Below, in pieces: positions 11,037 through 27,739 of a stretch of DNA of 27,974 nucleotides. Made by a program: the position numbers and the translations under genes. A model generated the notes under the pieces. That model searched no databases. It had not been told where the DNA came from and worked only from the letters and a program-made list of their open reading frames with translations. Each line of letters begins with the position of its first letter. Within the stretch, counting starts at the first letter, position 1. The stretch is from an uncultured Treponema sp. (GTDB lineage Bacteria; Spirochaetota; Spirochaetia; Treponematales; Treponemataceae): contig CAKUTI010000026.1 of NCBI GenBank assembly GCA_934691925.1, positions 1 through 27,974 on the forward strand. The letters are read 5' to 3'.

Positions 11037-12350
11037 CTATTTTCCGAGATATTTTTTCATAATAGCCAAAACTTCATCCGAAGTCTTTACAAGCGGATTT
11101 TCAAGATGATTTTGAACGAGCGCGCTTTTCACACATTCCGGCATTTCAGGAGCTTCGCCAATCGCGTGACGAATCCACGATGAAGAAAGAGCCGGATGGT
11201 CACGCATAACAAGAACAGTACAGGCTTCATCCTCGTCTGTCATTCCTTTTCGCGCTACGGCAGCGGAAAAAGCCCGGCTCGTGCATTTGTCTGCGTAAAC
11301 ATTGTAGTCAAGGAAAAGTTTCCGGCTGCATTTTTCCGCCTCTTCGTCAGAAACATCGCTTGGATAAATAAAATGCTTCAGCATAAGCGAATAAGACGCA
11401 AAAACTTCTTCAAGACGCTCAAGGTTTGAAGGGCTTGCGGGGTCGGCATTTTCACGGTCTTTTAGAGAGACAATGCTGTCCATAATTTGGCAGTTTCCAG
11501 CCAAGTCAGTTTTGATTTCGTCAGTTGTCGGACAAATAAATCCGTTTACAGGAAGAGAAAGCCGCCAGCTGTAAAGGCCTGCAACGAGATTTGAATAATT
11601 TCCACAAGGCATCGCGTAGAAAATATCCGCATTGACCTGTTCTTTCAAGCGGCTGAACGCGTAAGGATAAAAAAACATCTGTGGCATAAGGCGGCCGATA
11701 TTCGCCGTGTTTGCAACAGTAAGATTATATCTTTCAACGAGATTTCTATCCGCGAAAAATTTTCTTGCAAGGGAATGGCAATCGTGCTCAGTTCCGTCAA
11801 TTTCAATTGGAATGACATTTCCGCCGTTCCAGATAAAATCCTCGTCGCAAAGCCCTCGCATAAATCCGCGAGGATAAAGCAAGACAGCTTTCAGGTTCTT
11901 TTTTCCACGAATTGCGCGCGCAAGGCTCGCACCGAGTTCTCCGACAGTGGAATCAAGAAAAACCGCATTTCCGCCGTTCATAGTAAGAATTGTTTCGAGG
12001 CAGTTCACGAGATAGGAAATTCCAAAATCCTTGTGGCTTCCAGTCGGCGTGTGAAAAAGCTCCAGCGCAAAGAGCCTTTCGTCAAGACGCTTTAAACTCG
12101 GGGCAAAAGGGAAGGCCTTTGTCGCGATTGTCTCGCAAATAATCGGTGAAAATTCGTCGTTTATGCACGCCGAGGTCAACGTTCCGGCAATGTTCGCAAA
12201 AGAAGTGCGGCTGTCCATATACAAAAGAAAACGGCGCAAGTCAACAAAATCTTTTGGAACATAAAGACCGCCGTCCTTTGGCATACAGTCAAGCACGGCT
12301 TTTTCAAAATTTACAGAATTCGAAGAATCTCTAGTGCTAACAAATTTCAT
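11037..12350 (-). CDS. thrC: Threonine synthase
   Basis: A 437-aa PLP enzyme of the ThrC family that converts O-phosphohomoserine to threonine. MKFVSTRDSSNSVNFEKAVL and PKDGGLYVP are the ThrC N-terminus; LELFHTPTGSHKDFG carries the PLP-binding Lys107; FYAMPCGNYSNLVAGL is the phosphate-binding loop region seen in bacterial ThrC. The start is 15 bases after the stop of the DUF3943 gene. No Shine-Dalgarno is visible; either it is translated by coupling, or from the possible promoter that overlaps the end of the upstream gene. There is no thrA, thrB or other amino-acid gene beside it, so it is a dispersed pathway gene. Confidence 0.93.
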   Translation of the reverse strand: MKFVSTRDSSNSVNFEKAVLDCMPKDGGLYVPKDFVDLRRFLLYMDSRTSFANIAGTLTSACINDEFSPIICETIATKAFPFAPSLKRLDERLFALELFHTPTGSHKDFGISYLVNCLETILTMNGGNAVFLDSTVGELGASLARAIRGKKNLKAVLLYPRGFMRGLCDEDFIWNGGNVIPIEIDGTEHDCHSLARKFFADRNLVERYNLTVANTANIGRLMPQMFFYPYAFSRLKEQVNADIFYAMPCGNYSNLVAGLYSWRLSLPVNGFICPTTDEIKTDLAGNCQIMDSIVSLKDRENADPASPSNLERLEEVFASYSLMLKHFIYPSDVSDEEAEKCSRKLFLDYNVYADKCTSRAFSAAVARKGMTDEDEACTVLVMRDHPALSSSWIRHAIGEAPEMPECVKSALVQNHLENPLVKTSDEVLAIMKKYLGK

Positions 12351-12362
12351 ATATCGCTAGAT

Positions 12363-12391
12363 ATTTTAACGGAACTTCCATTTTGCGTAAA
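12363..12391 (-). promoter_or_regulatory. Possible internal promoter for thrC
   Basis: Minus strand: TTTACG (12386-12391), 17-bp spacer, TAAAAT (12363-12368), 12 bases to ATG. It overlaps the stop codon of the upstream gene. If used, the leader is about five bases. Confidence 0.35.
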
Positions 12392-13865
12392 TGCTCGCAG
12401 AATTCAAAATCTGGAAAACATCAGGCTCTGTCTTGTAGAAAGTCCGCTTTGCATAAAGACGGTCGGAAATTCCAAGAAGAACGGATTTTGAAACCGCAAC
12501 TTCCGCGCTGAGAGTTCCTTTTCCAATCAATTCCCAGCCAACAGAAGCTCCGTCTTTCAGCTGATTGTAAAAATCATACATCGCGTAACCGTGGAAATCA
12601 AAAGCGACGTTCGAGCCTTTGTCTGTCGCGTATTTCAATTTCAAGACAGACTCGGCTCCAGTCGTGTAGCTGTAGAACCGCACAGTTCCGTCTGGATAAT
12701 CGGTCAGCAAACTTCTTCTCAAATAATAATTGTCCGCAGTTCCCAAAGCAATCCAAGCTCCGTGAAGCTGCCATTCAAAGCGGCTTGTGTCAAAATTTAC
12801 GCGCTGCTTGATTGCAAGTCCAGGCGCAAGAGATGAGATCAGATAGAACGAATGCCAGTCAAAATCGTATTCCATCACAAATCCCAAAGTCGTGTCGATG
12901 TTGTCTGCAAAAACCGGCGAGCGAGACCACAACATTCCGTTGCTTTCAATTTCAATGTTGTACATAACCTGCTCATCGAATTCCTTAAAATTGCAGTCAG
13001 AGCCAGTTCCAGAGCCTTTTCCGGCATCAGCATGGATTTTCAGCTCAAAATGGCTGTAAGGAACGTTCGAGTCGTTTGTGTAAGGGTCGTTGTAAACCGC
13101 CAAAACTTCAAATCCGCCATAAACCGGATAATTCTCGTTTCTGTCAAAATTCGTCATATCGACTTTTGAATCCGAGCCAAGAATGTTCGTGTAAGAAGAC
13201 GCAGTTCCAGCCTCAACTTTAAAAGTAAGCTCATTGATTGTTCCATGAGGATTCTGCGGCTTTTGACCTGTCGCAAATTCAGTCCAAAGACGCATTGGAT
13301 TCAAAGCAAAGCCCGCAAGACGAGATTTGCTGTCTGCGGCAAGCGAAAGGCGGTACATCATTTCACCGACAGAAAACGCGCCCAAAGTCGTGTAAATCAT
13401 ATCGTTTTTTGAAGGAGCGTTTGTCTCGCAAAGATATTCCCAAAAAGCCGAGCCGACAGTTGTAACAAGCAAAGATTCAAAAACATTGAGATTAGAGCCG
13501 CGCGCCGACATATAATAAAGGCTTCCCTGATAAGGATGAAGAACGAAATTCGTCCAGTACCAGTCATCGTCCCAAGCCAAGTCGCGCTCCCAGAAGCGGT
13601 TCCATTCATCAGGACCTGTCTGCGCCCAGCCAGAGCCAATCACGTAGCGGTTCCAAGTCGCAAGCCCCAAGTTAAAAATCAACATTCCGCCGAACGCAGA
13701 AAACCAGTGTTTTTTTCCGTCATTTTCTGAATCAGAAAGAGCGTTTTCCGCCCCACCCGTCATCTGTTTTGCCAATTCAGCATTTGTCTGCGACTGCGAA
13801 TAAACATTTCCGCCTAAAAACGCGGCGAGCAAGCAAACAGCAGCCATTTTTGTAATTTTTTTCAT
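12366..13865 (-). CDS. DUF3943 outer-membrane protein
   Basis: I start at the second ATG (MKKITKMAAV), giving 499 aa, because the -10 box ends two bases before the first ATG; a transcript would start around the second. The N-terminus is a signal peptide ending near VYSQ. The segment HPYQGSLYYMSARG...LLVTTVGSAFWEY and AFSVGEMMYRLSL is characteristic of DUF3943. The remaining two-thirds has alternating aromatic and polar residues in strand-length stretches and ends with YAKWKFR, consistent with an outer-membrane beta-barrel. Function of the family is unknown. Followed at 15 bp by thrC; the pairing is probably positional, not functional. Divergent from the DctP gene, with intermeshed promoters. 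Confidence 0.83.
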   Translation of the reverse strand: MKKITKMAAVCLLAAFLGGNVYSQSQTNAELAKQMTGGAENALSDSENDGKKHWFSAFGGMLIFNLGLATWNRYVIGSGWAQTGPDEWNRFWERDLAWDDDWYWTNFVLHPYQGSLYYMSARGSNLNVFESLLVTTVGSAFWEYLCETNAPSKNDMIYTTLGAFSVGEMMYRLSLAADSKSRLAGFALNPMRLWTEFATGQKPQNPHGTINELTFKVEAGTASSYTNILGSDSKVDMTNFDRNENYPVYGGFEVLAVYNDPYTNDSNVPYSHFELKIHADAGKGSGTGSDCNFKEFDEQVMYNIEIESNGMLWSRSPVFADNIDTTLGFVMEYDFDWHSFYLISSLAPGLAIKQRVNFDTSRFEWQLHGAWIALGTADNYYLRRSLLTDYPDGTVRFYSYTTGAESVLKLKYATDKGSNVAFDFHGYAMYDFYNQLKDGASVGWELIGKGTLSAEVAVSKSVLLGISDRLYAKRTFYKTEPDVFQILNSASIYAKWKFR

Positions 13866-18286: not shown

Positions 18287-19213
18287 TTATTTTCCAGAAT
18301 TTCGCTCCCAAAAAACGCCGTCCTCGTAGCCTTGAATTTTCTTGTCGTTTTCAGCGAGATTCAGCCTTTTTTGCGCGAGAAGGCAATATTCCTCGTTCAG
18401 CTCGATTCCGCAGTAATTTCTGCCAAGCTTTTTCGCCACAACGCTTGCAGTTCCGCTTCCCAAGAACGGATCAAAAACCAAGTCGCCCGGCTTGGAGCTT
18501 GCCAAAATCAGCTTCGCGTAAAGTTTTTCAGGCTTTTGGGTCGGATGCTCGGTGTTTTCAGGCATTGACCAAAACGGAACTGAAATATCGTCCCAAAAAT
18601 TCGAGGGATATGTTACTCTGAATTTTCCGTCGTCGCTTTCCTCCCAGTCTTTCGGCTTTCCTTCTTGACGGTAAGGAGCGACAACTTTTCTCTTGATTTT
18701 CACGGCTTCAACGTTGAAATAATAATCTTTCGGATTTTTCACCGCGAACCAAATATCTTCCATTGAATTTTTCCAGTTCGATTTTGAGCCGCGCCCTTTT
18801 TCCCTCTGCCAAGTGATTCTATTCAGAACGAAAAGCTCTTTTTCCACCGCGCGCTGCAAAGACGAAGTGCATTTCCAGTCGCCGCAAATGTAAAGCGAGC
18901 CGTTTTTTTTGAGTTTTTTGCAGACAAGAGGAAACCACGAAGCCAGATATTCGTCATAAGACTCGATTGAACGCTGTAAAAACGTAAATCCGTTGAAATT
19001 TTTCGTGAGATTGTAAGGCGGATCGATTATGATTAAATCCGCAAATTCGTCAGGAAGAAGCGGAAGAGCCTCCAAAATGTCGGAATTTATCGTAGAATTA
19101 ACGAAATTTCCAAAATTCACTTGGCTTTTTGTGAGAATTTGGCTTTTTAAAACAGGAATTTCATCCTCACTCAAAATGACAGTTCTGTTCCGCGGAGCTT
19201 TCTGTTTTTTCAT
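18287..19213 (-). CDS. Orphan beta-class DNA methyltransferase (N6-adenine or N4-cytosine)
   Basis: A 308-aa AdoMet-dependent DNA methyltransferase. Motif IV DPPY (64-67) precedes motif I FDPFLGSGT (247-255), the order of the beta class. Between them are RITWQREKGRG, WKNSMEDIWFAV and YPSNFWDDI, and then HPTQKPEKLYAKLI. The DPPY form favours N6-adenine methylation, though N4-cytosine is not excluded. The recognition sequence cannot be read off. No restriction endonuclease gene is beside it, so it is solitary. The start codon lies one base after the stop of the P1 peptidase gene and there is no ribosome site, implying translational coupling. Confidence 0.88.
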   Translation of the reverse strand: MKKQKAPRNRTVILSEDEIPVLKSQILTKSQVNFGNFVNSTINSDILEALPLLPDEFADLIIIDPPYNLTKNFNGFTFLQRSIESYDEYLASWFPLVCKKLKKNGSLYICGDWKCTSSLQRAVEKELFVLNRITWQREKGRGSKSNWKNSMEDIWFAVKNPKDYYFNVEAVKIKRKVVAPYRQEGKPKDWEESDDGKFRVTYPSNFWDDISVPFWSMPENTEHPTQKPEKLYAKLILASSKPGDLVFDPFLGSGTASVVAKKLGRNYCGIELNEEYCLLAQKRLNLAENDKKIQGYEDGVFWERNSGK

Positions 19214-21217: not shown

Positions 21218-21940
21218 TTAAATCCAGACTAAATCGCGCACGGAGCTGTAAGACACAAGAGGATTTCTGATATTCCAGCTTTCAAGATTCTGTTTCAATC
21301 CGTCTTCAGGAGTTCCGTCAAAAACTTTGTCGCCGCGGAACAAAACGATAAAACGGTCGGCAAGCCCCAGGCATTTTTCAAGCTCATGGGTCAAAATTAT
21401 GATTGTCTTTCCCTCGGAATTTAGCTTTTTCACGAGAGAATTCACCTGCTTTACGCCGCCAAAATCAAGATTCGCATAAGGCTCGTCCAAAATAAGAACC
21501 GGGAAATTCATTGAGAGCATACACGCAACGGCAAGCCGCCTTTTTTCGCCGCCCGAAAGAAAGCGCGCAGGATAGTCGGCCTTTGCCGAGAGCCCGGTCT
21601 GAAAAAGCGCGTCGTTCACGGCTTTTTCAATCTCTTCCTTTGATTTTTTCTGATTTTTAAGACCGAACGAGATGTCCTCGCGCGGAGTCTCGCCCAAAAT
21701 CTGAGTGTCGGCTTCCTGAAAAACAAGCCCTGCCCTTCCGTAAGACGCGACGCTTCCTGAATCGGCTTTTTCAAGCCCCGAAATTATGTTCATCAAAACG
21801 CTTTTTCCGCTTCCGTTCTCGCCGCCGATAACACAAAGCGAGCCTTCGTCAAGCGAAAACGAGACATTCCGCACCGCGACTTTTTCACCCTCGGCGGTCT
21901 CGTAGGATTTTGTGATGTTTTTTAGTTCAATTTTATTCAT
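21218..21940 (-). CDS. ECF-type ABC transporter ATPase (EcfA/BioM/CbiO family), orphan
   Basis: A 240-aa ATPase. Walker A is GENGSGKS (40-47), then the Q-loop LVFQEADTQILGETPREDISFG, which is characteristic of energy-coupling-factor ATPases, signature LSGGEKRR (128-135), Walker B VLILDEP (148-154) and switch LTHE. ECF transporters take up vitamins or metal ions such as biotin, cobalt or nickel. No T-component, S-component or second ATPase is seen on either side, so partner and substrate are unknown. No Shine-Dalgarno; a promoter with consensus TTGACA ends six bases before the ATG. A perfect 13-bp inverted repeat and a seven-copy palindrome array lie upstream, suggesting specific regulation. 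Confidence 0.87.
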   Translation of the reverse strand: MNKIELKNITKSYETAEGEKVAVRNVSFSLDEGSLCVIGGENGSGKSVLMNIISGLEKADSGSVASYGRAGLVFQEADTQILGETPREDISFGLKNQKKSKEEIEKAVNDALFQTGLSAKADYPARFLSGGEKRRLAVACMLSMNFPVLILDEPYANLDFGGVKQVNSLVKKLNSEGKTIIILTHELEKCLGLADRFIVLFRGDKVFDGTPEDGLKQNLESWNIRNPLVSYSSVRDLVWI

Positions 21941-21946
21941 TCAAAG

Positions 21947-21975
21947 ATAATCGCAAATTGGAGAACGATTGTCAA
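21947..21975 (-). promoter_or_regulatory. Promoter of ECF ATPase gene, leaderless type
   Basis: Minus strand: TTGACA (21970-21975), 17-bp spacer, GATTAT (21947-21952), then CTTTGA and the ATG at 21940. Six bases from the -10 box to the start. Confidence 0.7.
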
Positions 21976-22003
21976 CTTTGTTTCACTTTGCAAAGTTGAC
22001 AAT
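21968..22003. promoter_or_regulatory. Perfect 13-bp inverted repeat overlapping the -35 box
   Basis: ATTGTCAACTTTG (21968-21980) and CAAAGTTGACAAT (21991-22003), ten-base loop. The proximal arm includes the -35 TTGACA. A repressor or activator site is the simplest reading; there is no T-run for a terminator. Confidence 0.6.
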
Positions 22004-22040
22004 CCAGCAGATTTTGCCGATTTAGTCAGACACAGGCGGA

Positions 22041-22298
22041 TTTCGTATTCAGTACGATTTGAAAAATAAAACCGTCTTTCGTACTGAGTACGATTCAAGG
22101 AATTTTGAAAAAACGAGTTTCGTACTCATTACGATTCATAAAATTTTCGCAAGATGAGATTCGTACTCAATACGATTTATAAATTTTAGAAAAAATGACA
22201 TTCGTACTCATTACGATTTGTGTTTTTTGGAAAAAGAACATTCGTATTCAATACGATTCAAGAAAATGCAAAAAGCATATTTCGTATTGAATACGATT
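22041..22298. repeat. Array of seven palindromic sites, about 41-bp period
   Basis: Seven copies of TTCGTAyTsAnTACGATT, beginning (one base before TTCG) at 22041, 22077, 22118, 22159, 22200, 22240 and 22280; intervals 36, 41, 41, 41, 40 and 40. TCGTA and TACGA arms are invariant in all copies and all copies have the same orientation. The five-base centres are TTCAG, CTGAG, CTCAT, CTCAA, CTCAT, TTCAA, TTGAA; copies 2, 6 and 7 are perfect 15-bp palindromes with different but compensating arms. The AT-rich stretches between copies share a weak AAATTTTnGAAAAAA pattern, so the unit is a 41-bp tandem repeat in which only the palindrome was kept. Repeats are too short and spacers too alike for CRISPR. 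It fills the gap between the ECF ATPase promoter and REP element A. Confidence 0.9.
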
Positions 22299-22317: not shown

Positions 22318-22407
22318 GTCACCCTGAATTTATTTCAGGGACTACATTTTTTATAGATTCCAAATCAAAGCGAACACAACAACAAACGTTCTCGAGTTCG
22401 GAATGAC
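22318..22407 (+). repeat. REP-like element A
   Basis: Begins GTCACCCTGAATTTATTTC, contains the hairpin CCCTGAA-TTTAT-TTCAGGG, and ends CGGAATGAC. It has about 45 extra bases before the 3' end compared with element B. Ends GTCA...TGAC are complementary. Confidence 0.75.
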
Positions 22408-22426
22408 GAGTTAAGGAAAAGCGGAA

Positions 22427-22457: not shown

Positions 22458-23102
22458 CTAAAGTTCCCGGATGTCGAGCTTTTTGACGCCGATTTCGCTG
22501 ATTACGCTTTCAACGCCGTTTGTGTCGAGATTCGAGATTTTCACGGTGACTTTTTTGCTTGTCATATTGCTGCCGTCGTCCGTAACAACCGCGATTATGT
22601 TTCCGCCCTTGTCGGCGATTTTTCTTGCAAAGTCAGCGAGTGCGCCTGCTCTGTCTTGGAATTCCATTGTCACGCGCACTCCATGGTGGCGCGCGCCGAA
22701 CATTGAGATGAACTGCTTGAAAATGTCGCTTTCAGTGATGATTCCGACAAGGATTCCGTCCTGAACAACCGGCAAACAGCCGATGTCCTTGTCTGCCATT
22801 ATTCTTGCGGCTTCCTCAATAACTTCGTCAGGCGAAACTGTAACAGGATTTTTTGTCATCACCTTTTCGACTTTGAGCTTTGAGAGAAGATAGCCCATCT
22901 CGTAGATGTCGAGAGTTGTGGCGGCAGACGGAGCGGCCTTTGCCAAGTCGTTTTTTGTTATGATTCCAACGAGATTGCTGTCCTTGTCTAAAACCGGCAG
23001 CTTGTTGATTTTTTCTTTTGTCATTATCGCTTTGGCTTCGGTTACCGAGCGGTCAAGTGAAATGCAGACCGGGTTTTTGCTCATGTAGTCAGATATAATC
23101 AT
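22458..23102 (-). CDS. CBS-CBS-ACT regulatory protein (AcuB-like)
   Basis: A 214-aa cytoplasmic protein with two CBS repeats (about 7-57, MSKNPVCISLDRSVTEA to GIITKNDL; and 80-132, VMTKNPVTVSPDEV to GIITESDIF) and a C-terminal ACT domain (about 141-212, VTMEFQDRAGALADFARKIADKGGNI). CBS pairs bind adenine nucleotides and ACT domains often bind amino acids. It is the last gene of the liv operon, two bases after livF, with AGGAGG before its ATG. This position suggests sensing of branched-chain amino acids or energy state to control the transporter or metabolism, which is inference from position and domains. Confidence 0.88.
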   Translation of the reverse strand: MIISDYMSKNPVCISLDRSVTEAKAIMTKEKINKLPVLDKDSNLVGIITKNDLAKAAPSAATTLDIYEMGYLLSKLKVEKVMTKNPVTVSPDEVIEEAARIMADKDIGCLPVVQDGILVGIITESDIFKQFISMFGARHHGVRVTMEFQDRAGALADFARKIADKGGNIIAVVTDDGSNMTSKKVTVKISNLDTNGVESVISEIGVKKLDIREL

Positions 23103-26669: not shown

Positions 26670-26717
26670 GTCAACCTGAATTTATTTCAGGGTCTGTATT
26701 TTTAATTTCGGAATGAC
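26670..26717 (+). repeat. REP-like element B
   Basis: A compact 48-bp copy: GTCAACCTGAATTTATTTC, CAGGGTCTGTATTTTTAA, then TTTCGGAATGAC. The 23-bp array 1 follows directly. Confidence 0.75.
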
Positions 26718-26727
26718 ATACTAAAAT

Positions 26728-26901: not shown

Positions 26902-27114
26902 ATGACAACAACGGTTCTTGAAAAAAAAGTAAAGTCTCTGCCAGAAAATCTTGTCTCAGAAGTTTCAGACTATATAGATTTTCTGCTATATAAAAATTCT
27001 AAAACGCAAAACAAAAATGGACTTGACGAAGCAATCGCAGAATTTGAGCGTGGCGAATATGACACATACGCTAGCGTTGACGAGCTTATGAAAGCGGTGG
27101 ATTCAGATGCGTGA
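26902..27114 (+). CDS. Antitoxin of a type II toxin-antitoxin pair
   Basis: A 70-aa protein. The N-terminal part (EKKVKSLPENLVSEVSDYIDFLLYK) matches the DUF2281 type found in many VapB/RelB-like antitoxins, and the C-terminal acidic part (GLDEAIAEFERGEY, SVDELMKAV) resembles toxin-wrapping tails of RelB/DinJ antitoxins. It overlaps the toxin gene by eight bases (27107-27114), the normal arrangement. It should neutralise the toxin and, with it, bind its own promoter region; the 23-bp palindromes just upstream are candidate sites. Confidence 0.82.
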   Translation: MTTTVLEKKVKSLPENLVSEVSDYIDFLLYKNSKTQNKNGLDEAIAEFERGEYDTYASVDELMKAVDSDA

Positions 27115-27400
27115 ATTAAGAGTTTCTAAAAGTTTTAAGAAAGACATGAAGAAGCTGACAAAAAGCGAATCTGAAAAAGCTATCACCGTAATTAAAAAGC
27201 TTCAAAAAGACATCCCTCTCGAGCAAAAATATCATGACCACTATCTAAGAGGAAATTACGAAGGATGGAGCGAATGTCATATAGAACCAGACTTGCTGCT
27301 TGTCTATAAAAAAGGAGAGGGCAGCAACACACTTTATCTCGCGCTGCTTAGAATAAGCTCACACTCAAATATTTTTTCAGTACGGAAGCGCGCTCTTTGA
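27107..27400 (+). CDS. YafQ/RelE-family mRNA interferase toxin
   Basis: A 97-aa toxin of the YafQ branch of the RelE/ParE superfamily. Conserved residues are His45 in YHDHYLRGNYEGW, His58 and Asp62 in ECHIEPDLLLVY, and His86 and Phe90 in RISSHSNIF, matching the catalytic set of E. coli YafQ. The Trp that usually follows the Asp is Leu63 here. YafQ toxins cut mRNA in the ribosome A site. No ribosome site of its own is needed because of the overlap with the antitoxin gene. Complete, not truncated. Confidence 0.88.
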   Translation: MRELRVSKSFKKDMKKLTKSESEKAITVIKKLQKDIPLEQKYHDHYLRGNYEGWSECHIEPDLLLVYKKGEGSNTLYLALLRISSHSNIFSVRKRAL

Positions 27401-27416: not shown

Positions 27417-27517
27417 GTCACCCAGAATTTATTTCAGGGACTACGTCTGTCACCCTGAACTCAAATGCGGAAGCATTCGCTTTGATTCAGGGTCTACATT
27501 TTTAATTTCATAATGAC
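27417..27517 (+). repeat. REP-like element C, composite
   Basis: A first partial copy (27417-27444, GTCACCCAGAATTTATTTC then CAGGGACTAC) is followed at 27449 by a full copy with a longer hairpin (CCCTGAACTCAAA with TTTGATTCAGGG) ending in CATAATGAC at 27517. The last bases run into array 2. Confidence 0.75.
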
Positions 27518-27739
27518 AAACACATCGGCAGCGCACTAATTGGATGGCTGTTACTGCACTAACAAGCACATTGTCAGTGCAGTAACAAGGGGACTGTCAG
27601 CACACAAGCAAGCATATTGTCAATGCAGTGACAAGCCCATTGCCAGCGTACTGACAAGCATATTGCCAGCGCAGTAACAAGCCCATTGTCCATGTACTAA
27701 CAAAAACATCGTCAGTGAAATAACAAGTGTATTGTTCAC
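27510..27739. repeat. 23-bp palindromic tandem array 2
   Basis: Ten units in exact 23-bp register, at 27510, 27533, 27556, 27579, 27602, 27625, 27648, 27671, 27694 and 27717. The common core is TGACAAGC..ATTG.CAG; good units are CTGACAAGCATATTGCCAG (27651-27669) and GTAACAAGCCCATTGTCC. Seven-base arms CTGACAA / TTGyCAG surround a five-base centre. No gene is supported in this stretch; one reading frame across it is low-complexity repeat translation. Confidence 0.88.

Follow-up and report, generated by a model that had tools for sequence, protein, structure and literature searches.

A seven-copy palindrome array in an uncultured Treponema as a candidate locus of a dispersed minisatellite family with palindromes probably kept by templated copying

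Seven closely similar palindromes stand in tandem between two genes on a contig of an uncultured Treponema sp. (CAKUTI010000026.1, assembly GCA_934691925.1), and they raise the question of whether such an array is a set of binding sites for a dimeric protein, for instance an operator of the adjoining gene, or a repeat whose palindromes are kept up in another way. On the minus strand of the window, by which we mean the whole stretch of 27,974 nucleotides that was analysed, a LIV-type transporter operon is followed by a CBS-ACT gene, which ends at 22458, then by the array and by an ABC ATPase gene with its start at 21940. The features of the locus are as follows.

21218..21940, minus strand: ABC ATPase gene, ECF-like, the downstream neighbour of the array
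21967..22004, no strand: perfect inverted repeat of 14 bp with 10 nt between its arms, covering the -35 element of the predicted ATPase promoter
22042..22298, plus strand: palindromic tandem array, seven copies of TTCGTAyTSAnTACGATT
22042..22059, plus strand: copy 1, TTCGTATTCAGTACGATT, one mismatched pair; the 36-bp step to copy 2 is short
22078..22095, plus strand: copy 2, TTCGTACTGAGTACGATT, a perfect 15-bp palindrome
22119..22136, plus strand: copy 3, TTCGTACTCATTACGATT, one mismatched pair
22160..22177, plus strand: copy 4, TTCGTACTCAATACGATT, one mismatched pair; with the centre left out, its arms match the reverse complement of the copy 1 arms
22201..22218, plus strand: copy 5, TTCGTACTCATTACGATT, one mismatched pair
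22241..22258, plus strand: copy 6, TTCGTATTCAATACGATT, a perfect 15-bp palindrome
22281..22298, plus strand: copy 7, TTCGTATTGAATACGATT, a perfect 15-bp palindrome with a 15-nt core that matches the reverse complement of the copy 6 core exactly
22458..23102, minus strand: CBS-CBS-ACT protein gene, the upstream neighbour, with its 3' end toward the array

The array consists of seven exact TCGTA-N5-TACGA sites that start at 22043, 22079, 22120, 22161, 22202, 22242 and 22282, with steps of 36, 41, 41, 41, 40 and 40 bp. A reading made earlier from the sequence alone had placed seven sites at intervals of 40-41 bp, which describes the sites and every step except the first. The TCGTA and TACGA arms and the flanking T and TT are invariant in 7/7 copies, and variation is confined to C/T after TCGTA, C/G at the centre and A/G/T before TACGA. 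Mean identity was 90% in the 18-bp block and 52% in the aligned linkers, which bears out the description of invariant arms with drifted linkers. The motif alone is not rare, as the loose form TCGTAN5TACGA with two mismatches tolerated gave 13 matches in the window against a shuffle mean of 7.7. The sequence-only reading had further proposed that changes in one arm were compensated in the other. This applies to copies 2, 6 and 7 and does not apply to copies 1, 3, 4 and 5, and in the window taken by itself pairing was not above chance (48 paired cells against a shuffle mean of 47.4, with 2303 of 5000 shuffles as good). With relatives included (57 units from eight arrays), 479 of 513 cells pair, a value reached by 0 of 5000 shuffles, whose maximum was 464; compensation is thus a property of the family and not one that the window by itself reveals.

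The relatives were found by pattern searches in which the pair pattern of array sites matched 2 of 274 genomes of the family and a looser version matched 7. Among the latter, inspection confirmed arrays in five (G672, G676, G576, G532 and G657), and a reversed control pattern had matches in nine genomes, one or two in each. Most of these arrays have 5-11 copies at the 40-41 bp step seen in the window. The palindrome is AATCGTAATSATTACGATT in G672 and G676, with compensated variants CGTCAT/ATGACG and ACGT ends, AAACGTACTnAGTACGTTT in G576, and TCGTTATnATAACGA in G532 and G657, where it drifts to TTCCTTAT/ATAAGGAA within one array. Across the family, palindromes of 13-19 bp recur at a nearly fixed step of 40-42 bp with letters specific to each array. 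In window copy 6 the linker opens with ten letters, CAAGAAAATG, that also open several linkers of G672, and the array beside an orthologous gene of the DUF6261 family has 7 copies in G672 and 6 in G676. Among the titles listed, no earlier report of intergenic 41-bp tandem or palindromic repeats in Treponema was found, and a literature query for 'tandem palindromic repeat' with intergenic and genome gave no match.

Two observations had been named in advance as favouring a neutral minisatellite. Hundreds of scattered copies were not seen; in G672, five arrays account for 34 of the 38 forward matches that one pattern gave. Failure of the palindromes to persist at orthologous loci was seen in part: 16 loci of relatives with the CBS gene (L019-L034, flanks of up to 1.5 kb) had no comparable array. 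Relatives of the CBS protein reach 79-95% identity (P0001-P0018, from the sources ena and lgn and once ncbi), and its best match in the genomes searched is 64%.

The step is held more closely than the letters. A de-novo search of 1.12 Mb of G672, open to any even spacing of like palindromes between 18 and 120 bp, turned up six arrays of at least five copies, all with a 40-41 bp step and of three palindrome types, along with a single three-copy row at 20.5 bp. The same search of 0.4 Mb of G532 gave one 40-bp and one 42-bp array, plus rows of three copies at 22, 46 and 84 bp. The G672 and G532 counts lean to 41 bp because many of the loci had been chosen for arrays or sites (all G676 loci, the first contig of G532, and G672 contigs C4, C8, C12, C19, C23, C28, C42 and C61). 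In 0.2 Mb of G241 there was one three-copy row at 41 bp, and in 0.2 Mb of G175 no array. Shuffled sequence yielded 0 arrays when the scan for similar palindromes was limited to steps of 30-60 bp; an earlier scan without the similarity filter had given five arrays from shuffles in three rounds, and several rows of unlike palindromes were taken as chance. Tandem Repeats Finder (TRF), over a range of 30-60, returned only periods of 37-46 bp (49 rows, some overlapping), and the commonest intergenic period after merging was 41 (15 of 56, including four from outgroup loci), a count that leans to 41 bp for the same reason. Short steps of 36-38 bp were concentrated at array ends, making up 11 of 24 terminal steps and 1 of 50 internal ones (p 6e-6), a Fisher value that, like those given below, is too small, since arrays in one genome are not independent and may share descent.

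How palindromes of so many spellings are maintained is suggested by changes between neighbouring copies. At the centre, 18 of 26 changes are G-C or A-T flips, compared with 12 of 69 in the linkers (Fisher p 3e-6), flips that may be shared by duplication instead of recurring. In one array (L089), copies 1 and 2 are exact reverse complements over 19 bp, including two arm mismatches, while their linkers run in the same direction; in another (L148), copies 5 and 6 are reverse complements over 11 bp. Both AAA and TTT occur as centre triplets in the array L162, and by eye the linker direction is constant within arrays. Twelve arrays contain 42 asymmetric copies, of which 12 find a reverse-complement partner within the same array when the centre is ignored; the 42 include L107 and L162, arrays without a single-base centre. 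Inversion of copies is thus frequent, yet most asymmetric copies are without a partner.

These observations lead us to a reading, held at a probability of roughly 0.5, in which the window array belongs, as one locus, to a dispersed minisatellite family of palindrome-bearing repeats in Treponema-like bacteria, with palindromes kept by templated copying; the upkeep by copying between copies is, as a part of it, probable. Template switching between inverted repeats homogenises arms and inverts spacers, as described in the parts consulted of PMC8604942. In an array, whole units would be gained or lost by slippage or unequal exchange, and each palindrome could fold on itself or pair with any other copy, because all copies are inverted repeats of one another. 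Switching of the template by DNA polymerase among copies would then even out the arms and flip the centre, and the non-palindromic linkers would be left to drift. Template switching leaves unexplained the constancy of the step at the diverged linkers of L162 and the short end steps, purifying selection could equally account for the arms invariant in 7/7 window copies, and a purely neutral repeat does not account for the association with DUF6261 genes described below. If the reading is right, palindrome compensation, which is usually taken to mean dimer binding, can arise from templated copying within an array, and these loci supply natural arrays in which such copying could be measured.

The sequence-only reading had taken the compensated arms as a pointer to selection for dimer binding. 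Inverted copies occur in place and several unrelated palindromes share one step, within a single genome as well, and compensation is therefore a weak argument for such binding. The idea itself, a nucleoprotein array in which a dimer sits on each palindrome and neighbours cooperate on about one face of the DNA for nucleoid organisation, anchoring or segregation, is possible and rather unlikely in our estimate. It draws on the invariant arms among drifting linkers in the window and in L162, where arms are 98% and linkers 42% identical at steps of about 37-41 bp, and on the step held at 40-42 bp with its distinct end steps. A constant step with short end steps could reflect a series of bound proteins with end effects, or else layered growth with the older units at the edges. 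It draws also on the palindrome of G672 and G676, whose letters match the Zur box of Bacillus subtilis, a 7-1-7 sequence (TCGTAATnATTACGA). In our own alignment of positions, the invariant C4 G5 and C15 G16 fit the positions critical for Zur in the sections consulted of PMC4324032. That one genome spaces unrelated palindromes by the same step, that arms vary inside single arrays and that promoters are not preferred all speak against the nucleoprotein array.

A link of another kind was found with genes of the DUF6261 family (PF19775), which have arrays of mutually unrelated repeats directly upstream. An HMM search of the sampled DNA gave ten such genes, nine of them with upstream sequence, and a TRF array lay within 450 bp upstream of 8 of the 9; the ninth (L107, start 735) shows only a weak periodicity of about 40 bp, and that with thresholds set low. 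These counts come from a TRF listing that has overlapping rows and leans to 41 bp, and from a sample in which two genes had been fetched for their arrays (L061, L065) and two noticed through arrays in DNA fetched otherwise (L107 at 6472, L195). For the five genes found from homology alone (L095, L100, L105, L107 at 735 and L215), 4 of 5 have a 41-42 bp array upstream. With a simple gene caller, 5 of 6 DUF6261 genes had an upstream array, compared with 20 of 1574 others (p 4e-9); it was by their arrays that two of those five had come to notice. Seven DUF6261 genes lie in 0.8 Mb of G532 (L095, L100, L105, L107, L215, L222), one of them cut by a contig end, and 5 of the 6 with upstream sequence stand beside a 41-42 bp TRF array.

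It is on these counts, the homology-only subset among them, that we base a doubtful alternative, in which gene and upstream array form one unit whose repeat is the target of the protein, solitary arrays like the one in the window being offshoots. The array units differ gene by gene, except at the orthologues L061 and L065, and three solitary G672 arrays (C12, C23, C61) have the palindrome of the DUF6261 array of that genome. Against it, most arrays do not adjoin DUF6261, two G672 arrays (C7, C42) carry other palindromes, the ten genes come from four genomes with seven from one, and tblastn of DUF6261 had no hit in the window at 1e-3. A protein 98% identical to the DUF6261 product at L065 is predicted to be all-helical (mean pLDDT 91.4, pTM 0.67), and fold searches with the model matched generic helical bundles only, with no distinctive match; the sole literature match for DUF6261 concerns, by its title, daptomycin resistance. 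One could picture protein and arrays as two halves of one system, equally doubtful, in which DUF6261 would recognise or shape its own array as structured DNA, with hairpins every four helical turns and solitary arrays as satellites; palindromes might then change letters freely as long as step and palindromicity were kept. This picture is kept at low odds, since no more than five DUF6261 genes were found without the help of arrays. The DUF6261 link and the 40-42 bp step across unrelated palindromes offer a testable way into this protein family of unknown function.

The box identity noted above also invites the thought that the arrays are operator clusters for Zur, of the Fur family, controlling zinc genes, which we consider very improbable. 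An array of eight copies of AATGTCAnnnTGACATT with strongly diverged linkers (L162; positions 12225-12525 of G672 contig C42) does lie about 300 bp upstream of znuA, and in G676 a Fur-family gene is near znuA. The palindrome of this array, the sole one so placed, differs from the Zur box, however, which sets aside Zur operators at zinc-gene promoters; no match to the box with fewer than three mismatches was found in the sampled znu and zur loci, and both three-mismatch matches fall in coding frames. Only one Fur-family protein of G672, a genome that is perhaps incomplete, exceeded the cut-off, and by eye its rubrerythrin-like neighbour makes it PerR-like. The window sites themselves do not qualify as Zur boxes, having C/T and A/G/T at inner arm positions, unlike the box TCGTAATnATTACGA.

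Equally remote is the proposal that the array is a cooperative operator of the ECF-like gene, which the sequence-only reading had raised and which is left unsupported here. About 100 bp separate the end of the array from the ATPase start, which lies downstream of it. Flanking genes could be classified for 15 of 16 arrays, including two pairs of orthologous loci, as 7 tandem, 4 divergent and 4 convergent; the convergent ones are L062, L064, L089 and L093, L064 on weak ORFs, and L090 was called divergent where its orthologous locus L091 is tandem. Because arrays stand between convergent, tandem and divergent genes alike, a promoter-operator role is not general, and the 16 CBS loci without an array count against the proposal too. 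By one caller, no ORF of at least 90 codons overlaps an array at 16 arrays; in another analysis, some 42-bp arrays of G532 overlap ORFs. The predicted ATPase promoter (minus strand, TTGACA from 21975, a 17-bp spacer and GATTAT to 21947) is a prediction only, the scan having given 2 sites against 1.5 expected. It bears the inverted repeat at 21967..22004, a likelier candidate operator for the gene than the array. As for the neighbour itself, called an ECF ATPase by the earlier reading, it is an ABC ATPase; its ECF identity, judged by sequence models, is likely and not certain, since it scores closest to ECF models yet under their cut-offs (169.6 vs 330 bits).

A centromere of the parS kind was set aside, the window neighbours being an ABC ATPase and a CBS-ACT protein without a ParA/ParB-type partner; no Par families were found beside the arrays of relatives, where some neighbours matched no family.

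The window holds further repeats and genes. By eye, intergenic elements of the form CACCCTGAATTTATTTCAGGG ... GGAATGACG are dispersed at about 22319-22410, where one follows the array, 26670-26720 and 27418-27520. A second tandem array, at 27555-27727, has a period of 23/46 bp (TRF scores 129 and 170) and units that look palindromic by eye (TTGTCAGTG...TRACAA). A YafQ-family toxin gene (27107-27400, plus strand; PF15738, E 2e-25) and the short gene before it are probably a toxin-antitoxin pair, with YafQ as the toxin half. At 18287-19213 on the minus strand lies a gene for an N6/N4 DNA methyltransferase (PF01555), CcrM-like and under the NCBIfam cut-offs.

Set against known repeat systems, the arrays match some and depart from others. 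CRISPR repeats are at least 24 bp long with cas genes beside them; here the conserved unit is 15-19 bp, and no cas family was found among 20 proteins scanned with Pfam. REP/BIME elements with their RAYT were likewise rejected, a Y1 transposase (PF01797) being present in 1 of 6 searched genomes, five of which have arrays and which are perhaps incomplete. Zur boxes of Bacillus subtilis are mostly single, unlike the present arrays, which are promoter-independent and change their letters. The Neisserial dRS3/NIME repeats are short inverted-repeat units arrayed between genes, with another unit and spacing. The mycobacterial MIRU/VNTR minisatellites resemble our arrays in standing in tandem between genes at several loci, with units of about 40-100 bp; they are not known to carry compensated palindromes. 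Dispersed intergenic tandem repeats of the STAR and MIRU kind are recognised in our arrays by head-to-tail tandem units, by several intergenic loci per genome among the relatives, as in the 1.12 Mb of G672 with its six arrays, and by copy number varying at one locus (7 in G672, 6 in G676). The STAR elements of Staphylococcus aureus, in the sections consulted of PMC3532100, share with them the dispersed intergenic tandem arrays, a short conserved motif with recurring linkers, variable copy number and a distinct last spacer. There, a GC-rich direct repeat of 14 bp makes up the STAR motif and spacers measure 40-44 bp; our units lack this motif and so are not STAR elements, being palindromes with linkers of 21-23 bp, array-specific and flipping. 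A likeness in mechanism is the template-switch mutation of quasipalindromes, which, in the parts consulted of PMC8604942 and PMC7202029, also homogenises arms and inverts spacers; it acts within single inverted repeats, and in the present family we infer it among the many copies of an array.
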